Assembly (NCBI GenBank): GCA_937923405.1
Contig: CALDUY010000020.1
Span: forward strand, 72,777 to 136,776
Direction of reading: 5' to 3'
DNA: 64,000 nt
Source: an uncultured Gemmataceae bacterium
GTDB taxonomy: Bacteria > Planctomycetota > Planctomycetia > Gemmatales > Gemmataceae
The translations under genes and the position numbers were made by a program. Below the pieces are notes generated by a model. That model worked only from the letters and a program-made list of their open reading frames with translations. It did no database searches and was not told where the DNA came from. Positions 5,005-55,520 of this stretch are shown piece by piece. The stretch's first letter is position 1. Each line of letters begins with the position of its first letter.

Positions 5005-5315
5005 CGTTACAACATGGTGAGCGGAGCGCAGGCGAAAGTCGCAGCCCGCACCAGGGCATCCTGGTCCATCAGGTCCTCGTTACAACATGGTGTAGCGGAG
5101 CGCAGGCGAAAGCCTGCGACTACCGATACGGATTGCCTACGGATTGCCAGGTTGTGGTCATCGAGCCAGTCAGCAACAACTGCGCGATGGCGAAAGCCTG
5201 CGACTACCGATACGGATTGGCAGCTAGCCGCAGGCGAAAGCCTGCGAAAGCCAGTTTCCGCCTGCGAACGCGCTTCCTACTTCGTTGCCGCTACACCATT
5301 TGGAGAAACGCTCTA
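5005..5315. repeat. Dispersed palindromic repeat cluster, copy A
   Basis: This intergenic block contains tandemly degraded copies of short units: GTTACAACATGGTG with AGCGGAGCGCAGGCGAAAG twice (about 5006 and 5088), GGCGAAAGCCTGCGACTACCGA twice (about 5106 and 5190) and CGCAGGCGAAAGCCTGCG (5229-5246), which is a hairpin of eight-base arms with a two-base loop. It ends in a tail, TTGCCGCTACACCATTTGGAGAAACGCTCT in outline, that recurs in copies B and C. The block lies between convergent transcription units (lipoprotein gene and tRNA/transporter). It resembles REP/BIME-type elements; no mobilising transposase is present in the window. Confidence 0.7.
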
Positions 5316-5725: not shown

Positions 5726-7222
5726 TCAGGCGACGAGATGGACGCTTTCCCAACAGAGCCACAATCCCAGGACGACAATCAGGATGGCGCTGACAATTGG
5801 CAAAGCTCGGGTCAGCCATTGGCCACGCGGCGAGTCGAGAAAGCCGCCCGCTAGGTTTTTGCCGACCACCACGACGAAGCCCAAGGCGACCAGAACGCTG
5901 GCGAGGCCGGCACTGAAGGCCAGAACTAACGGCCAGGCTAGCTCGGGACGCTGAGCCGTCACGCACACCGCGGGAATCAAGATCGCATCCCAGCAGGGCA
6001 CGAGGCCGCCGGAGACACCCATCAGAATCACGCCCCACCAGCCCGGACGAATCGCCATCTCCTCCGCTCCGTGCGAGTGCGAGTGTCCCCCGGGTAGATG
6101 CAGATGATCGGCGCGGCCAGCCAGACGCTGCATGAACAGCCACACTCCTACGCCGGCAATCAGCAATCCGCCCACCAACCCTAGGATCGCCTGAACTGCA
6201 GCAGGCGGTGTGTTGGGAAAGAACCATGGCAAGACCAGCGCTACGATCATAATGATCCCCGTGTGCGTCAGGGTCGTTACGATCCCTAATACCAGAGCAT
6301 GCCCCAGTGTGCCGCGCTCGCCGACCAGGTACGCCGCTACCAGGGTCTTGCCGTGGCCCGGAGTCAGGGCATGGGCCGCGCCAAAACTAGCGAAGATCAA
6401 CAGCAACACCCCCAGGCCATAGCGCGTGTCGAACAACACCTCCAGCCAACCCGAACGAGTTGCCGGCACCTCGTCTGGCCCGTTCGGCTTCAGGAATCCG
6501 ATCGGCGCGGCAGTCGGCGGTTTGTCCTCCACAGCCAGCATTCGAGTACGGCCTTGGGGAGGAGGTCGGAGCGGCTGGGGATCGGGTGGAAGCGTTGGTC
6601 GCACCAGACCGGCTCGGCGTGTCGGGATGGCCTGCAGCGTCGCTCGTAGGCGACGAAGTTGCTCGCGTTCGTCCAGGGTGAGACGTTCCACGGCTTTGGT
6701 CAAAAGAGCATCGTCCGGAGCCACGACCTCGCTGACGGTCAACTCAGGGCTAGAGTCCAGGGCCAGATGGATCTGGCTGGTCAGATCGCCTTCGTAGTTG
6801 GCGTCGCGAAAAGCAAAGCGATACGGTTCGTTCGGATCGAGTTGCCAACGTCCTCGAAAGCGATAGTCGCAGCGAACATGATCCAGAACGCGAAAGGATC
6901 GCCGAACCACTTCCAACTCAATCTCACGACCGTTGAGCGTGACGGCCAGATTTCCCATCAAAGCAGAGGAGAAATAGCGTAAATAAGCCTCGTGAATGTC
7001 CTCGTCGGGCCGCCGCTCCAGATCGACCCCGTCCAGATCGCGATACATGCGGAAGCTGTCCAGCTCGACGCGATAATCGATGAAGACGCCTTCCGGAGCC
7101 AAAAGCACCACGATGGTACGATCGTGATTGTCCTTAGGAACAGGATGTTTGGCCCAGGCAGAAGAACCGGCTAGGCTGAGTAGCCCGCCAATCAGCAACA
7201 GTGCCATTCTGAGTCGAATCAT
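5726..7222 (-). CDS. NicO/HupE-type nickel/cobalt transporter with large N-terminal domain
   Basis: This 498-residue membrane protein has a signal peptide (about 1-24, ending SSAWA), then a roughly 240-residue extracytoplasmic region, then a C-terminal membrane domain of about six helices from residue 260. The membrane part shows the NicO-family signatures HALTPGHGK (284-292), LTHTG (318-322), a His-rich loop HLHLPGGHSHSH (373-384) and GGLVPCWDA (405-413). The family moves Ni(II) or Co(II) across the inner membrane, as in RcnA efflux. The gene stands alone and ends near the tRNA. The N-terminal region may be a periplasmic sensor or metal-binding domain; direction of transport cannot be told from sequence. 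Confidence 0.85.
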   Translation of the reverse strand: MIRLRMALLLIGGLLSLAGSSAWAKHPVPKDNHDRTIVVLLAPEGVFIDYRVELDSFRMYRDLDGVDLERRPDEDIHEAYLRYFSSALMGNLAVTLNGREIELEVVRRSFRVLDHVRCDYRFRGRWQLDPNEPYRFAFRDANYEGDLTSQIHLALDSSPELTVSEVVAPDDALLTKAVERLTLDEREQLRRLRATLQAIPTRRAGLVRPTLPPDPQPLRPPPQGRTRMLAVEDKPPTAAPIGFLKPNGPDEVPATRSGWLEVLFDTRYGLGVLLLIFASFGAAHALTPGHGKTLVAAYLVGERGTLGHALVLGIVTTLTHTGIIMIVALVLPWFFPNTPPAAVQAILGLVGGLLIAGVGVWLFMQRLAGRADHLHLPGGHSHSHGAEEMAIRPGWWGVILMGVSGGLVPCWDAILIPAVCVTAQRPELAWPLVLAFSAGLASVLVALGFVVVVGKNLAGGFLDSPRGQWLTRALPIVSAILIVVLGLWLCWESVHLVA

Positions 7223-7329: not shown

Positions 7330-7359
7330 TTGACTTCGTCGGTTTTGTGGAGATACAAT
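7330..7359 (+). promoter_or_regulatory. Candidate sigma70-type promoter of the GT2/BshC-like operon
   Basis: TTGACT (7330-7335) and TACAAT (7354-7359) are separated by 18 bases and lie about 50 bases before the GT2 start codon. Both hexamers match the consensus at five of six positions. Confidence 0.55.
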
Positions 7360-7406: not shown

Positions 7407-8168
7407 ATGCGTGTCTTGACCGCAATTCCGGTGTACAACGAAGTCCGGCATGTCGAGCGGGTACTCTCCGAGGTCAAACGTTTTAGCGAGCATATCCTGG
7501 TTGTCGATGATGGTTCGACGGATGGTACTGCCGAGGTGCTAGCCCAACAGCCGGGCATCGTCGTCTTGCAACACCCGCAGAATCGCGGCTACGGAGCTGC
7601 TCTTATCACCGCCTTCAATTATGCCCTCCGTGAGGAGGTGGACGTTCTGGTGACGATGGACTGCGACGGACAACATGAACCGGCCCGTATTCCGTTGTTG
7701 CTCGAAGCGATCGATGACGCCGACATCGTCTCAGGCAGTCGTTATTTGCGCGACTTTCGCCAGGACGATCAGGCCCCGGAAGATCGTCGCCGCATTAACC
7801 AGATCATCACCAGCGAACTGAATACTCGCTATCGGTTGAACCTGACGGATGCATTTTGCGGCTTCAAAGCCTATCGACGGGAGGCGCTGGCCCGTTTGCG
7901 GATCACTGAGACCTCGTGGGGCATGCCGTTGCAACTCTGGGTGCAGGCCGCTCGCTTGTCGCTGCGGATCCGCGAGATCGGGGTGCCCCGCCTGTATCTC
8001 GATCCAACGCGAGCATTTGGCGGCGTCCTCAACGATGCCGAGCAACGGCTGGCCTACTATCGCCAAGTGATCGCTCAGGCCGAGGTGGACTTCCTACCCT
8101 GCGATCAGGTACCGGGCATTCTCGCCGTCTGTTGCGAGGTGCTGACCAAACCGGGAGCCTATTCGTGA
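7407..8168 (+). CDS. Family 2 glycosyltransferase (DPM1-like)
   Basis: This 253-residue soluble enzyme has a GT-A fold signature: AIPVYNE at 6-12, DDGSTDGT at 34-41 and the metal-binding DCDGQ at 85-89, followed by GSRYL (110-114) and FCGFKAYRREAL (150-161). These resemble dolichyl-phosphate mannose synthase-type GT2 enzymes, which transfer a sugar from a nucleotide donor; no C-terminal membrane helices are present. I chose ATG 7407 for its GGAG box about 12 bases upstream and because IPVYNE then falls at the usual distance from the start. Its TGA overlaps the GTG start of the next gene (GTGA), so the two proteins are likely made together. The acceptor is unknown. Confidence 0.9.
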   Translation: MRVLTAIPVYNEVRHVERVLSEVKRFSEHILVVDDGSTDGTAEVLAQQPGIVVLQHPQNRGYGAALITAFNYALREEVDVLVTMDCDGQHEPARIPLLLEAIDDADIVSGSRYLRDFRQDDQAPEDRRRINQIITSELNTRYRLNLTDAFCGFKAYRREALARLRITETSWGMPLQLWVQAARLSLRIREIGVPRLYLDPTRAFGGVLNDAEQRLAYYRQVIAQAEVDFLPCDQVPGILAVCCEVLTKPGAYS

Positions 8169-9730
8169 GCCTGGTGATTCGCGCACCGAGCGAGGACGGG
8201 GCGATCTTGGCGGTGCCGGCCTGGTCTGAAGTCGGCTCGCTTATTGACGAGAATCGCGATCGGCAAAGACGTACATCTGGCCGACTGCTCGACTGCACCT
8301 TCGACGAGGTCCGCCGACTGGCTCGACGCCAGCTGATCCACTCAGCTCAGGACTACACGCAACGCCTCTGCTATTTCCGCGAAGAGACCCCGCTTCTAAT
8401 GGCGGGGCATCAACCGGAACTGTTCCATCCTGGGGTTTGGGCCAAGAACTTCGCCCTGGCGGGGTTGGCTCGTCGGCATCACGGACTGGCGGTCAACTTC
8501 CTCGTCGATAACGATGTCGTCAAGCGCACCGCCCTTTCCGTGCCGATGCGGGGCGATCCTTGGCCGGTGCCCCGATCCGTGCCGTTCGATCGTGGGACAG
8601 GAGAACTTCCCTGGGAAGAGCGGCGCTTGCTCGATCGCGGCATCTTCGACGACTTTGCCCCGACCGTGACGAACTTGTTGCGGGCCTGGGACATCGAGCC
8701 GCTCCTTCCCGCGTTTTGGCACCGTGTGAGCGACCAGTTGTCGTTCTATCACGATCGACTCGGCGAGAGCTTCGCGGCAGCGCGACGCCAGTTGGAACAG
8801 ACTTGGGGCTGCGGCAATTTGGAGCTTCCCTGGTCCACAATTTGCCAGGGAGAGGCGTTTGCTCGCTTCGCCGGAGCGTTGTTGGCCGATCTGCCGACCT
8901 TCGTCGCTGTGTACAACCAAGTGGTCCGCGACTATCGCCGCCGCCTGCGGATCCGTAGTCGCAGCCATCCCGTGCCGGATCTGGCCAGCGAGGGCGATTG
9001 GCTGGAGACGCCGTTCTGGGGCTGGCACACCGAGCAACCCCGGCGCGGTCGGCTGTTTGCTCGACTACATGGTGACCAGCTACACCTACGCACACCAGAA
9101 GGAAGCTGGGCGACGCTGCCCAGTCCGACAGCTCCCGGCGATCGGTTTTTACTAGCCTGGCAAGAGTTGGCCCAGCAAGGCTACAAACTCCGCAGCCGGG
9201 CGCTAGTGACGACGATGTTCGCCCGACTGCTTCTATGCGATCTGTTCGTGCATGGCATCGGTGGAGCCAAGTACGATGAACTCACCGACGAGATCGTGCG
9301 GCGTTACTGGCGGATTACGCCACCAGCCGTTCTCGTGGTCTCGGCGACCAAGCGGCTGCCGCTGCCCAGCTATTCGGGGACAAGGCAAGAGTGGCAACAA
9401 CTGACTCATCGGATCCGTGATCTCCATTATAACCCGCAGAGGTACGTCGCCGCGGATCCCCGAACGGCGGAGAAAGACCGTTGGATTCACTCCACGCCGA
9501 CGACGCGGAGCCAACGACGCGAACGCTTCCACCGCATTCGCGAGCTGTCGGCTCAGCTGCGGCCCGAAGTTGCCGACCAACTGGCCACGGCACAAGCTCG
9601 GCTCGATCGACTCAACCACGAACTACAAGCGAACGCTCTGGTGCAAAGCCGCGAGTTCGCCTTCTGTCTGTTTCCCGAAGCGACGCTGCGCCCCTTCTGC
9701 GAACAAGTGCTGTACCAGGCGGAACAATAA
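8165..9730 (+). CDS. Uncharacterised protein with a BshC-like pattern
   Basis: This 521-residue soluble protein starts at GTG 8165, overlapping the GT2 stop by four bases. It has no signal peptide. Two segments recall BshC, the cysteine-adding enzyme of bacillithiol synthesis: LLMAGHQPELFHPGVWAKNF (77-96), comparable to the family's GQQ.G.F.GP....YKA, followed by a hydrophobic strand and a D/E pair; and GIGGAKYDELTDEI (about 364-377), comparable to the GPGEI.Y..QL region, followed by PPAVLVVSATKRLPLP. Length also fits BshC (about 540). The likeness is judged by eye and is remote, and the usual bacillithiol partners are not in the window. The coupling to a glycosyltransferase suggests a sugar-containing small molecule as substrate, which is inference. 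Confidence 0.6.
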   Translation: MSLVIRAPSEDGAILAVPAWSEVGSLIDENRDRQRRTSGRLLDCTFDEVRRLARRQLIHSAQDYTQRLCYFREETPLLMAGHQPELFHPGVWAKNFALAGLARRHHGLAVNFLVDNDVVKRTALSVPMRGDPWPVPRSVPFDRGTGELPWEERRLLDRGIFDDFAPTVTNLLRAWDIEPLLPAFWHRVSDQLSFYHDRLGESFAAARRQLEQTWGCGNLELPWSTICQGEAFARFAGALLADLPTFVAVYNQVVRDYRRRLRIRSRSHPVPDLASEGDWLETPFWGWHTEQPRRGRLFARLHGDQLHLRTPEGSWATLPSPTAPGDRFLLAWQELAQQGYKLRSRALVTTMFARLLLCDLFVHGIGGAKYDELTDEIVRRYWRITPPAVLVVSATKRLPLPSYSGTRQEWQQLTHRIRDLHYNPQRYVAADPRTAEKDRWIHSTPTTRSQRRERFHRIRELSAQLRPEVADQLATAQARLDRLNHELQANALVQSREFAFCLFPEATLRPFCEQVLYQAEQ

Positions 9731-9747: not shown

Positions 9748-9929
9748 TGAAGATCGATTTAGATTACTTCTCGAGATGATGAAACCGAGGCAAACGCGGA
9801 CTAAAGTCCGCGGCTACCATTTTCGATTAACCGGTAGTCGCAGGCTTTAGCCTGGTAGTCGCAGGCTTTAGCCTGCGAAGAGCTTCAATCCTCTTTGGCG
9901 CTACACCATCTTCTTGAAGATCGATTTAG
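9748..9929. repeat. Dispersed palindromic repeat, copy B, with 15-base direct repeats
   Basis: Between two convergent genes lie GCGGACTAAAGTCCGC (a perfect palindrome, about 9797-9812), then GGTAGTCGCAGGCTTTAGCCTG twice in tandem (from about 9831), then a tail GAAGAGCTTCAATCCTCTTTGGCGCTACACCATC in outline. The block is bounded by exact 15-base direct repeats TGAAGATCGATTTAG at 9748-9762 and 9915-9929; the second contains the stop codon of the 1320-residue protein. The tail matches those of copies A and C. Confidence 0.75.
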
Positions 9930-12900
9930 GAGGGCAACGCTGGTCGCTCCCATTCACGCAGTTGCCGTTGAACTTCTTCATGGCTGACCGCCAAGCGATG
10001 AACGCGGAAGAAGTTTTCCGCCGCCCGCGCCGTCTCCGAATGGGAAGCTTGCACGCGATGGACTTCGGCCTCTAGGCGGCGCAACCAGGCCGGGACATCC
10101 AATCCCACGCCGGTTGGTGTCGCGGTGTAGGCACGCAACTCTTCTTGCAAGCGACGAAACGCGGGGCGATCCTCCTCGCATTCGATGCGGCGAGCTTCGT
10201 TCAGACACGGTTCGATCAGGGCGCAGAGTCGATCCAGAGCCAGCGTTTTGACAAAGCGTTCGCGCAGACGATCGCTGACGGTGCTGAGGCGAACGCCGTG
10301 GACCCGCTCTAGACGAGCGAGCTGCTCCAGGTGCTGTCGGGAACGTTCGCGAGTAAACTGCACCAGCGATTCCTCCCAGCGCAAAGCGGTCGAGGCTCGC
10401 CCATGTCGTGCCAGCATCTCATGGGCCAGCACAAGCGGCTTGAACTGCCAAGCGTTGCGTTCGTATTGCGTCTTCAGCCGCAAGAAGTCGAGCAAGACAT
10501 GGAGATTCTCGCCATAGTCCGACTGTGTCGTGGTGGTGTTGTAGTCCTTGTACTCCTCATAGTTCTCGACGACGGCTTGCAAAACGATCTCCAGGCGACG
10601 AATAGCATCCTCACGGCGAAGGGGCCCGTCGAGATCGTCGATGAGTTTTGACGGATGTAGCGGATCGGTATTCTCCCGCATATAGTCCAGATAGTTGCCC
10701 ACGCCGCGATGCAGAATCCCACGCAGGTTGCCCAGGGTCATGAAGCGAGCGTGGAACAAGTCGCTACCGTACCGCTGCACAAACGCGACCAAGGCACGCC
10801 ATTCCGTCTCACTGGGAATCCCTTCGAGGACGGAGAGTTGCAAGGTACGGCTGTGTTCGATCCACAGAGCCAGAAACGGCGCAGTCAGCCGTTCAAGTAT
10901 GTCGACCAGATGGTCATCGCTAGCCTGCTCGGTGGGCCATTCGTGAGCGCTGCGCACAACGTTCTCGATTACCGCTTGATAGGCCGATTGGAAGAAGTGA
11001 TTGAACTCCGTGACGCCGCGACCGCGGGTTGGTTGTGACTGCTCCATGCCGTGAGCTAGTCGGAGCAGGTCGTAGGTTTCTCGCAGTAGCCCCAGGCGCG
11101 GCAGGTTGGCCAGCAACGCACGCAGCACCGCTTGAGCGACGCGAACGCGCAAGATTGCTCGTGGTTCGCCGCCTTCCGGCCCTTCCGAGAGCGGGGTGAA
11201 CAGCAACGGTTCGCCCTGAAACTGCTTGATGAACCCAGGCAAGGCCGATCGTGCCAGTTCGACATCCCCCGCAAACAAGGCATGTTCCAGGCGAATCAAG
11301 TCCGGTTCCCACGGCGGGGCATCAGGCCCGGTTCCCTCTTGACTCCGCTGCGAGCCGCGTAAGGCACCGATGGCTAGCGACGTATCTAACGACGTGGCAA
11401 TGGTCGTGTAGATCAGCTGCTCCTTGATAACTCGTCGCCGGTCGAACTCAACGAGGGAATCGTGATCGCCCGATGGTTCTGGCAAGGAGTAGGCATGCAA
11501 AGCGTCGAGCAGTTCAAGCAGGGCCAGTCGATTGCGTTGCGCGTTGGCCAGCCAGGGGGCGAGAGCCTCGCTCTCCCCGGTGAGAAAGCGTGCGGCCAGT
11601 TGCCACAAGCGGGCCAGCGTCGACAAAAAGCGGAGCCGATTTTCGATCCGTTCGTGCTGCTCCTCCAGGTCGAAATGATCAGTCGGGGCACCGTCGGCGA
11701 CCATGCCTTCGTCGTCGTTGGTGCTGTCGCGATAAGTAACACCCTCGTAGGCCGCCCCGAAGGGGTCTTCGTCGTCGCTGTCTTCCTCCTCATTGGTCGA
11801 AGCGGGGCGATCCAGCGTCGGAACCTCCCAGAACTCCTCAGCATTGGCTTCGAGGACGTCGAACAGGCGGCGGACGAGCAGATCGGCTCCGTTCTCGTTG
11901 CCGCCCCGTGTTAGGGTCAACATCCAGCGGAGCAGCAGATTATGGAACGAGTGGGTACCGTCTTCCAGCGGAACCACGTTGGCCTGGCTGAGCCAACTGG
12001 CCAGCAAGCCCAGCGCGGCACGATGATCGCCACGCTGCAACAAGGCTTCGACGACGAGGGCAAAGGCACGAGGAGAGCGGAAATCGTCAAGCTGATCGCG
12101 CCAGAACGCCAGGTCGGACGACACTTCGCCACGCAGTCGCCAGGCGGCCAGCGACTTGGCCACGTTCCGCGCCGAGGTCGCTGCCTCGCCGCCGTGTACG
12201 CGGCGAAGATCACTTACTTCGTAGGTAGCAAATTGATCCCACCAGCGAGCGAACTGCTTCATCCGTTCGCCGGTCGTGGCAATCAAGGCGGTGTCACCCG
12301 AAGCTGCCGCCTCACTCAGGACGCGAGAATACAGCGTAAAGGTCTGCTCGACCAAGCCGACCAGTTCGTCCAGCCGTGGATCGCGTAAGGCATCTTCGCG
12401 AGCGCTGGACAAGGGGAACAGTCCCTGAAATCCCAAGATATTCCACGGATCGGCAAACGCGCCGCAGGCGATTCCACGATGAAGCAGATCTTCAATCTCG
12501 GTGAGACGATTGGCAGCCTCGGCGAGTCGGCCCTGCTGACACTCCAACCGTCCTGCCGACAGTTGACAGAGAATCGCGCTGTGCAGCCGCACCGACACCG
12601 CCATGATTCGTCGGGCCTCGGCCTGGCTGGCGCGGGGATAGCCCATCTCAGCAAAGAGCAGCGCCAAGTAACGCTGTTGCAGCTGGATGGCACGATGGCG
12701 GGCTAGATAGGCATTCAGATGCTGCCGTGCCGCACCGAACGGCTGGCGAGTGGTCTCTCGTTCCTCGCGTAGCCGCTCCTGATGCTTGCCTGACAGTCGC
12801 TGTAGCAATTGTTCATAAAACAGATCGCGATAGCGGGCAATACGCGGCAACAGGGTGGCCAGCGTAGCTGCGGAGTCGTGTGCAGCTGGCCCCCAACCCG

Positions 12901-13888
12901 ACACCCCCGCCGCCATCAGGATCGTTCCCGCCAGTACCGCCGCCCCTTCGATCAGCCGTTCCGTCGCGTCGATCCCTGGTGCGTTGGCCACGCGCTCCAT
13001 CAAGGCATCGAGGGTGATCTTGCGAATGACGTACCGCGTGTAGAAGCCTTTGTTGTCGATCTGGTGCGGATCCCATTCACCGAAGACGTAGTTGGGTCGG
13101 CGATTCACTGGGTGGCCGTGATCGTAGGCTCGCAGATCGAGGGCTAGTTCCTCCAGCTGATCAAGCTGGAACGAGGCTTCTTGCAACAAGCTGCTATCGG
13201 TCTGGCGGAGAATCTCCAGTGCTTGGGTGATCACTTCCTGATACCGGCCATGCGCGATCCCTGCGCCGCGGAGATACAACGGCAACGGACGATGCCGTTC
13301 GTGTTCGTAGGGTTCGCCCTGCGGTCGGGTTTCTAGAATGGCCAGGGGACGATGCCCAACAAAATCGTTCAACCGCGACAACACGACGGGCACTTTGGGC
13401 GTGGTCTCGGTTTCGTTCCGCAGCTTCAGCAGGGTCTCGAACACTCGAACCAGGAAGAACGGACCGAACAACGTGCTGTCGTCCAGATGGGCCAGCAGGT
13501 CGGCATGATAAGCACGATAGGCTGGCAACACCTCGGCACAGAGAGTGAGCATCTCGCTGGCCTGACGTGCATCGCGAAAGGCGGCGCTGCCAGACGCCTG
13601 CAACTCCCCCAGGCGGACTTGTAGCCGCTGCAGCAGACTCTGCCACGGTCGTGGGTCGCCCTGACGAACCAGTTCCGCGTAGGCGTCGTTGACTTGCTTC
13701 TGCCAGCGGGGATCGGGCCGTCCGTCCGAGAAATTTAGATAGCCTAACAGTGCTTGAGTCAGTCCTGGATCCAACTGTGCGTTTTGCGCTTCCACCACTC
13801 GATCTCCCTTCTGGGGAACTAGTTCCAGGATAACGGAGCGAGCGATTTCTCGAAAGCCGGAATGCGATACCTCTGGCTTCCCCTCCAT
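9926..13888 (-). CDS. Very large uncharacterised protein (1320 aa)
   Basis: I do not recognise this 1320-residue protein. It has no signal peptide; one mildly hydrophobic stretch near residues 315-335 (AAVLAGTILMAAGVSGWG) may be a buried helix. Most of the sequence is Leu/Ala/Arg-rich and looks all-helical, compatible with an alpha-solenoid scaffold. A very acidic segment at about 695-735 contains EEEDSDDEDPFGAAYEGVTYRD in outline, flanked by another acidic run, and separates two helical halves. The start is ATG at 13888; the stop lies inside a 15-base direct repeat. It is monocistronic and convergent with the BshC-like gene. Base composition is like its neighbours. A role as scaffold or large cytoplasmic complex component is possible but unproven. 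Confidence 0.85.
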   Translation of the reverse strand: MEGKPEVSHSGFREIARSVILELVPQKGDRVVEAQNAQLDPGLTQALLGYLNFSDGRPDPRWQKQVNDAYAELVRQGDPRPWQSLLQRLQVRLGELQASGSAAFRDARQASEMLTLCAEVLPAYRAYHADLLAHLDDSTLFGPFFLVRVFETLLKLRNETETTPKVPVVLSRLNDFVGHRPLAILETRPQGEPYEHERHRPLPLYLRGAGIAHGRYQEVITQALEILRQTDSSLLQEASFQLDQLEELALDLRAYDHGHPVNRRPNYVFGEWDPHQIDNKGFYTRYVIRKITLDALMERVANAPGIDATERLIEGAAVLAGTILMAAGVSGWGPAAHDSAATLATLLPRIARYRDLFYEQLLQRLSGKHQERLREERETTRQPFGAARQHLNAYLARHRAIQLQQRYLALLFAEMGYPRASQAEARRIMAVSVRLHSAILCQLSAGRLECQQGRLAEAANRLTEIEDLLHRGIACGAFADPWNILGFQGLFPLSSAREDALRDPRLDELVGLVEQTFTLYSRVLSEAAASGDTALIATTGERMKQFARWWDQFATYEVSDLRRVHGGEAATSARNVAKSLAAWRLRGEVSSDLAFWRDQLDDFRSPRAFALVVEALLQRGDHRAALGLLASWLSQANVVPLEDGTHSFHNLLLRWMLTLTRGGNENGADLLVRRLFDVLEANAEEFWEVPTLDRPASTNEEEDSDDEDPFGAAYEGVTYRDSTNDDEGMVADGAPTDHFDLEEQHERIENRLRFLSTLARLWQLAARFLTGESEALAPWLANAQRNRLALLELLDALHAYSLPEPSGDHDSLVEFDRRRVIKEQLIYTTIATSLDTSLAIGALRGSQRSQEGTGPDAPPWEPDLIRLEHALFAGDVELARSALPGFIKQFQGEPLLFTPLSEGPEGGEPRAILRVRVAQAVLRALLANLPRLGLLRETYDLLRLAHGMEQSQPTRGRGVTEFNHFFQSAYQAVIENVVRSAHEWPTEQASDDHLVDILERLTAPFLALWIEHSRTLQLSVLEGIPSETEWRALVAFVQRYGSDLFHARFMTLGNLRGILHRGVGNYLDYMRENTDPLHPSKLIDDLDGPLRREDAIRRLEIVLQAVVENYEEYKDYNTTTTQSDYGENLHVLLDFLRLKTQYERNAWQFKPLVLAHEMLARHGRASTALRWEESLVQFTRERSRQHLEQLARLERVHGVRLSTVSDRLRERFVKTLALDRLCALIEPCLNEARRIECEEDRPAFRRLQEELRAYTATPTGVGLDVPAWLRRLEAEVHRVQASHSETARAAENFFRVHRLAVSHEEVQRQLREWERPALPS

Positions 13889-52362: not shown

Positions 52363-52558
52363 TTTGCGAAATGGGGTAGCCGAGCGCGGATTAAAGTCCT
52401 TTGCGAAATGGGGTAGCCGCAGGCTTTAGCCTGGGTAAGAGCTTCATCGCGCGGACTAAAGTGCGCGGCTACCGGCAGGCTTTCCCCCTGGTAGCCGCAG
52501 GCTTTAGCCTGCGTAAGAGCTTCATCTTCCTTGCCGCTACAACATCTTGAAAAGCGCT
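52363..52558. repeat. Dispersed palindromic repeat cluster, copy C
   Basis: Between the convergent ftsK and the 186-residue gene lies a block with a 21-base direct repeat CTTTGCGAAATGGGGTAGCC at 52363 and 52400 (37 bases apart), CGCAGGCTTTAGCCTG twice, GCGCGGACTAAAGTGCGCGGCTAC, GTAAGAGCTTCATC twice, and the tail TTGCCGCTACAACATCTTGA that also closes copies A and B. The palindrome CGCAGGCTTTAGCCTGCG is perfect. Confidence 0.75.
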
Positions 52559-55444: not shown

Positions 55445-55520
55445 CGGTAGCCGCAGCCTTCAGCCTGCGCTGGTAGCCGCAGGCTTGAGCCTGTGGCTAC
55501 CTACCAGCAGCGGAGTTCTG
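55445..55520. repeat. Dispersed palindromic repeat, copy D (short)
   Basis: Two adjoining diverged copies of GGTAGCCGCAGGCTTGAGCCTG are present (about 55447 and 55471), the second ending GTGGCTACC, which pairs with the leading GGTAGCC. The tail found in copies A-C is missing. Unlike the other copies it lies between two co-directional genes. Confidence 0.6.

Follow-up and report, generated by a model that had tools for sequence, protein, structure and literature searches.

The GT2 glycosyltransferase gene and the BshC-like gene described here, together with a separate BshB1 gene, appear to form a three-enzyme pathway not described before. We consider it rather likely that GT2 catalyses the first and the BshC-like protein the last step of a three-step route parallel to bacillithiol synthesis. 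Its product is probably an aminoacyl-glucosamine conjugate, most probably cysteinyl. Coupling of the two genes, the BshC-like fold, the identity and co-occurrence of the deacetylase and the lack of BshA and BshC above cut-off were each observed computationally. We found no published description of a GT2/BshB1/BshC-like pathway in the literature searched, which covered only a minority of subscription papers and bioRxiv preprints.

The gene pair and its conservation

Features of the pair are listed in Table 1 by their position in the window, the whole stretch of 64,000 nucleotides that was analysed. An earlier note on this DNA had described the two genes as sharing a GTGA overlap and one promoter. 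The overlap was confirmed in the sequence; the single promoter is unproven, as only one sigma-70-like match precedes the pair and 0.8 are expected by chance. A shared promoter is plausible.

Table 1. Positions of the gene pair and its conserved motifs in the window.
Feature	Position	Strand	Evidence	Remark
GT2 glycosyltransferase gene, 253 aa	7407..8168	+	Pfam PF00535, AlphaFold, Foldseek	Proposed first step, replacing BshA
BshC-like ligase gene, 521 aa, GTG start	8165..9730	+	AlphaFold, Foldseek, hhalign	Proposed last step
GTGA start/stop overlap between GT2 and BshC-like genes	8165..8168	+	Sequence	
DCDGQH motif in GT2, residues 85-90	7659..7676	+	Alignment of 68 GT2 homologues	
Motif 1, GHQPELFHPGVWAKN, BshC-like residues 81-95	8405..8449	+	Family alignment, hhalign	Counterpart of BshC TGQQ
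DND, BshC-like residues 115-117	8507..8515	+	Family alignment, hhalign	Counterpart of BshC DHD
Motif 2, DLFVHGIGGAKYDELTD, BshC-like residues 359-375	9239..9289	+	Family alignment, hhalign	Counterpart of BshC GGPxEIAY region
Weak sigma-70-like promoter match 5' of the pair	7330..7359	+	Promoter scan	Not above chance

The survey of pair conservation that the note had proposed bore out the arrangement. In 92 of the 99 loci with enough upstream sequence, the gene directly upstream of the BshC-like gene was a co-oriented GT2, a few genomes being counted twice (e.g. L002/L033 and L004/L046). Such coupling is far more frequent than chance would give. In about one third of the GT2/BshC-like loci the two genes could overlap by 1-4 bases. 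Cultured carriers include Zavarzinella formosa DSM 19928 (L039) and Alienimonas chondri (L061). The arrangement was found in Planctomycetia, Coriobacteriia and FCPU426 and in all 16 divergent planctomycete loci (L097-L112), whilst GT2 was not adjacent to the BshC-like gene in L113-L115 and L046. Downstream GNAT, signal-peptidase and other genes were considered as pathway members and rejected as lineage-local.

A NicO-type nickel/cobalt transporter gene (window 5726-7222, minus strand) is divergent from the pair. Just downstream, and convergent with it, lies a gene for a 1320-aa protein without Pfam matches (window 9926-13888, minus strand). A GTAGTCGCAGGCTTTAGCCTG element also recurs in the window, frequently as two copies close together, at 5103-5207, 9834-9875, 52413-52511 and 55447-55493, with eight matches against 0.02 expected. 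It is possibly a REP-like element.

Fold and profile evidence for the two enzymes

The earlier note had singled out the segments GHQPELFHPG and GIGGAKYDEL for their likeness to conserved regions of BshC. They lie at residues 81-90 and 364-373 of the 521-residue protein, as it had placed them, and both fall within the best-conserved parts of the family (homologues from 66 loci). Residues G81, H82, Q83, H88, G90, V91, W92, K94, H363, G364, G366, G367 and Y370 are invariant in 66 family sequences. The protein had no Pfam or NCBIfam family match, and neither single-sequence nor HMMER profile searches of Pfam, NCBIfam and PDB matched it to BshC. PF10079 was above the Pfam gathering cut-off in neither the window protein nor any of 66 family members, and likewise gave no match in 10 further members.

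Profile-profile comparison by hhalign, using about 98 family members and 14 planctomycete BshC proteins, matched the two families over 312 columns (probability 88.5, P 2.7e-6). The best P among 30 column-shuffled and 30 block-shuffled controls was 1.9e-3, and a reversed profile and two unrelated profiles gave no match. In the alignment, GHQ falls on GQQ, DND on DHD and GIGGAKY on the GGPxEIAY region of BshC, the same correspondence that the note had drawn for its two segments. To our knowledge, the catalytic residues of BshC itself are poorly known. The note's suggested profile check against BshC thus came out in its favour by profile-profile alignment, whilst the sequence profiles of Pfam and NCBIfam give no BshC placement.

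Structure prediction, also suggested as a check, pointed the same way. The AlphaFold model of the BshC-like protein, built with 66 relatives, had a pLDDT of 96.5 and a pTM of 0.92, and its best Foldseek match among 350,542 PDB chains was Bacillus subtilis BshC (4wbd; E 3.6e-11, probability 1.00, 543 columns). A class I lysyl-tRNA synthetase came second. The global TM-score against 4wbd was only 0.41, indicating that the domain arrangement or detail differs. Modelled fold and profile-profile match together support the protein as a remote BshC relative.

GT2 matches Pfam PF00535 (E 1.3e-28) and is a soluble, DPMS/ArnC-like catalytic domain. In an alignment of 68 homologues, D85, D87, Q89 and H90 are invariant and form a DxD-type motif, and R112, R127, Y197, R202, F204, R214 and Y218 are also invariant. 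Its AlphaFold model (pLDDT 93.4) matched ArnC (2.5e-14), DPMS (2.1e-12) and glucosyl-3-phosphoglycerate synthase (2.8e-10) in Foldseek, with soluble mannosyl-3-phosphoglycerate synthases also among the fold matches after ArnC and DPMS. GT2 thus shares its catalytic domain with the GT-A-fold enzymes DPMS, ArnC, PpgS and glucosyl-3-phosphoglycerate synthase, but differs from them in having no membrane domain, in its own set of invariant residues and in its tie to a BshC-like gene.

The deacetylase and the distribution of the proposed pathway's genes

A PIG-L gene stands between the GT2 and BshC-like genes in five Coriobacteriia loci. The deacetylase of locus L081, the only one scored in place, reached 193.1 bits with the BshB1 model TIGR04001 against a cut-off of 182.5, giving the gene order GT-BshB-BshC in Coriobacteriia. 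Whole-genome searches of seven Coriobacteriia and FCPU426 genomes placed BshB1 over this cut-off in four and below it in three; the below-cut-off matches in G393 (the genome of L071) and G395 are broken between frames. The window's genome encodes four PIG-L proteins, of which G000:C2 (L118) matches BshB1 at 197.6 bits, again over the cut-off. A second one of the four, the GEPTP-type paralogue G000:C5 (L119; L150 6127-7020), has a long branch and scores 161.1 bits, below the cut-off. It is perhaps a conjugate amidase or a duplicate.

In a BshB tree of 62 sequences, a branch supported at 100/99 set apart all 22 sequences from genomes with the pair. The GEPTPxG loop, followed by N78 R79, was present in every one of these 22 sampled deacetylases and absent from all 40 deacetylases of BshC genomes, which have other loops instead (e.g. 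GEMGTRG) with D78. Both clades keep the HPDD metal and base motif and the distal HPDH. Residue roles were taken from PMC4101496, in which docking of Bacillus BshB puts Arg53 at the substrate and has Arg109 touching GlcNAc-Mal. The Arg53 counterpart is an arginine in both clades. The Arg109 position is Ala in 22/22 pair-genome deacetylases. Because it is also not Arg in most canonical planctomycete BshB, a changed aglycone for the pair-genome enzymes is no more than suggested by these sequences.

A survey of 392 planctomycete genomes showed how these genes are distributed. Of these genomes, at least 105 encode the new ligase, 103 found by sequence and two by profile among eight re-examined genomes. 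Another 178 genomes had canonical BshC over its cut-off, with no genome shared between the two sets. BshA (TIGR03999) was over cut-off in none of the 105 pair genomes, among them the genome of the window itself, compared with 158 of the 178 BshC genomes (counted by eye), and in none of the seven Coriobacteriia and FCPU426 genomes. BshB1 at E<1e-40 was found in about 100 of the 105 pair genomes against none of the 109 with neither ligase (also by eye). One genome, G356, had a strong BshB1 and no apparent ligase; a profile search then revealed the new ligase. The ligases occupied 18 (new) and 47 (canonical) families with no overlap, and Fisher values for these contrasts overstate independence because the ligase sets divide by whole family. 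Another new-ligase genome (G362) gave a sub-threshold PF10079 match (E 6e-4), the only weak one among the genomes with the pair, whilst hmmscan of its ligase showed no PF10079 match.

YpdA-like proteins at E<1e-60 occurred in 13/105 pair genomes, 21/178 BshC genomes and 0/109 genomes with neither ligase. The window's genome has no strong YpdA-like protein (best E 5.1e-11). In the pair-bearing genome G057, the gene for a YpdA-like disulfide reductase below the YpdA cut-off and the BshB1 gene are about 1.9 kb apart, separated by a C92 peptidase-like gene (L148 4847-8448). We rejected YpdA as a universal marker of the new pathway as it is too rare.

Proposed pathway and alternatives

In the pathway we propose, GT2 would move GlcNAc from a nucleotide sugar onto a small acceptor X. 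A BshB1-type zinc deacetylase, whose gene would be the one found elsewhere in the genome in planctomycetes and between the pair genes in Coriobacteriia, would take off the acetyl group to give GlcN-X. The BshC-like protein would then aminoacylate the nitrogen of the glucosamine, most likely with cysteine, yielding a low-molecular-weight Cys-GlcN-X-type thiol. The aglycone X may be other than malate. We infer the sugar, X, the cysteine and a redox role, and likewise that the product would be a thiol. That Planctomycetia, many other Planctomycetota and some Coriobacteriia and FCPU426 have such a new thiol, with X not malate, replacing bacillithiol, has in our view about an even chance of being correct.

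Synthesis of bacillithiol, a protective thiol, begins with BshA, a GT4 enzyme, proceeds through the PIG-L deacetylase BshB and ends with BshC, which adds cysteine. The proposed pathway shares this order of glycosyltransferase, deacetylase and ligase, a BshB1 over the NCBIfam cut-off and a final ligase that has the BshC fold together with both of the regions conserved in BshC. It differs in that its first enzyme is a GT2, its ligase is missed by PF10079, its deacetylases have their own GEPTPxG clade, and the new ligase and BshA/BshC over cut-off are mutually exclusive in the sampled genomes. GT2 might also be an inverting enzyme, unlike BshA (bacillithiol being the alpha glycoside), but retaining enzymes occur among relatives of its fold. 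With neither BshA nor PF10079 over cut-off, the pathway is not canonical bacillithiol synthesis, though it seems to operate along similar lines. The earlier note had proposed a planctomycete analogue of that pathway with a different first enzyme. The analogy itself is upheld by fold, hhalign, the BshB1 found and BshA and BshC not being above cut-off; its confinement to planctomycetes is not. Mycothiol synthesis, by MshA (GT4), MshB (PIG-L), the CysRS-like MshC and MshD, shows the same sugar-thiol logic, with a PIG-L deacetylase and, as its last-step ligase, a relative of class I aminoacyl-tRNA synthetases. However, the BshB1 model gives the L081 deacetylase 193 bits and MshB 45 bits, the ligase here is BshC-like rather than CysRS-like, and an acetyltransferase was not identified.

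The complementary distribution of the pair and canonical BshA and BshC would also fit ordinary bacillithiol, with GT2 as a non-homologous BshA replacement making GlcNAc-malate and the BshC-like protein as a diverged BshC. Several partner deacetylases, the window genome's own included, are over the BshB1 equivalog cut-off. We nevertheless consider it unlikely: the deacetylases fall in a clade of their own, with the GEPTPxG loop and an invariant Ala at the Arg109 position (where canonical planctomycete BshB does not conserve Arg either), and the ligase is too distant for the Pfam BshC model. A different product would follow if GT2 made polyprenyl-phosphate GlcNAc that was then deacetylated and aminoacylated, giving a lipid-linked sugar for envelope modification and no soluble thiol. 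The GT2 acceptor could be a lipid because its nearest structures are polyprenyl-phosphate glycosyltransferases; ArnC, DPMS and PpgS are its closest structures and profiles, and the invariant R112 and R127 lie in a region whose arginines bind the acceptor phosphate in DPMS. Such a lipid route is improbable, given that the GT2 model contains no membrane segment, that no membrane partner gene occurs in the widely conserved neighbourhood of the pair, that known BshB1 deacetylases use small soluble conjugates, and that soluble glucosyl- and mannosyl-3-phosphoglycerate synthases give comparable fold matches.

The amino acid is a further point of doubt. Cysteine selection is not readable from sequence, and the conserved regions differ from those of BshC (GHQ against GQQ, HGIGGAKY against GGPxEIAY), so the ligase might add a non-cysteine residue to make an aminoacyl-glucosamine cofactor or chelator that is not a thiol. 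A thiol is favoured instead by the way the new ligase and canonical BshC strictly alternate and by the association with BshB1 and YpdA-like proteins, and we find a non-cysteine product the hardest of these readings to credit.

The pathway of GT2, BshB1 and the BshC-like ligase would provide, for much of Planctomycetota and for lineages beyond it, specific genes and a kind of product that can be tested. It suggests that there may be a second version of the BshA-BshB-BshC plan, which starts with an enzyme of its own and ends with a ligase very distant from BshC, and hence that BshC-like ligases may be commoner than present models detect. Planctomycetes were among the lineages without documented or predicted low-molecular-weight thiols in the survey of complete genomes by Hiras et al. 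2018. Canonical bshABC genes, unpredicted by that survey, are common in other planctomycete families.
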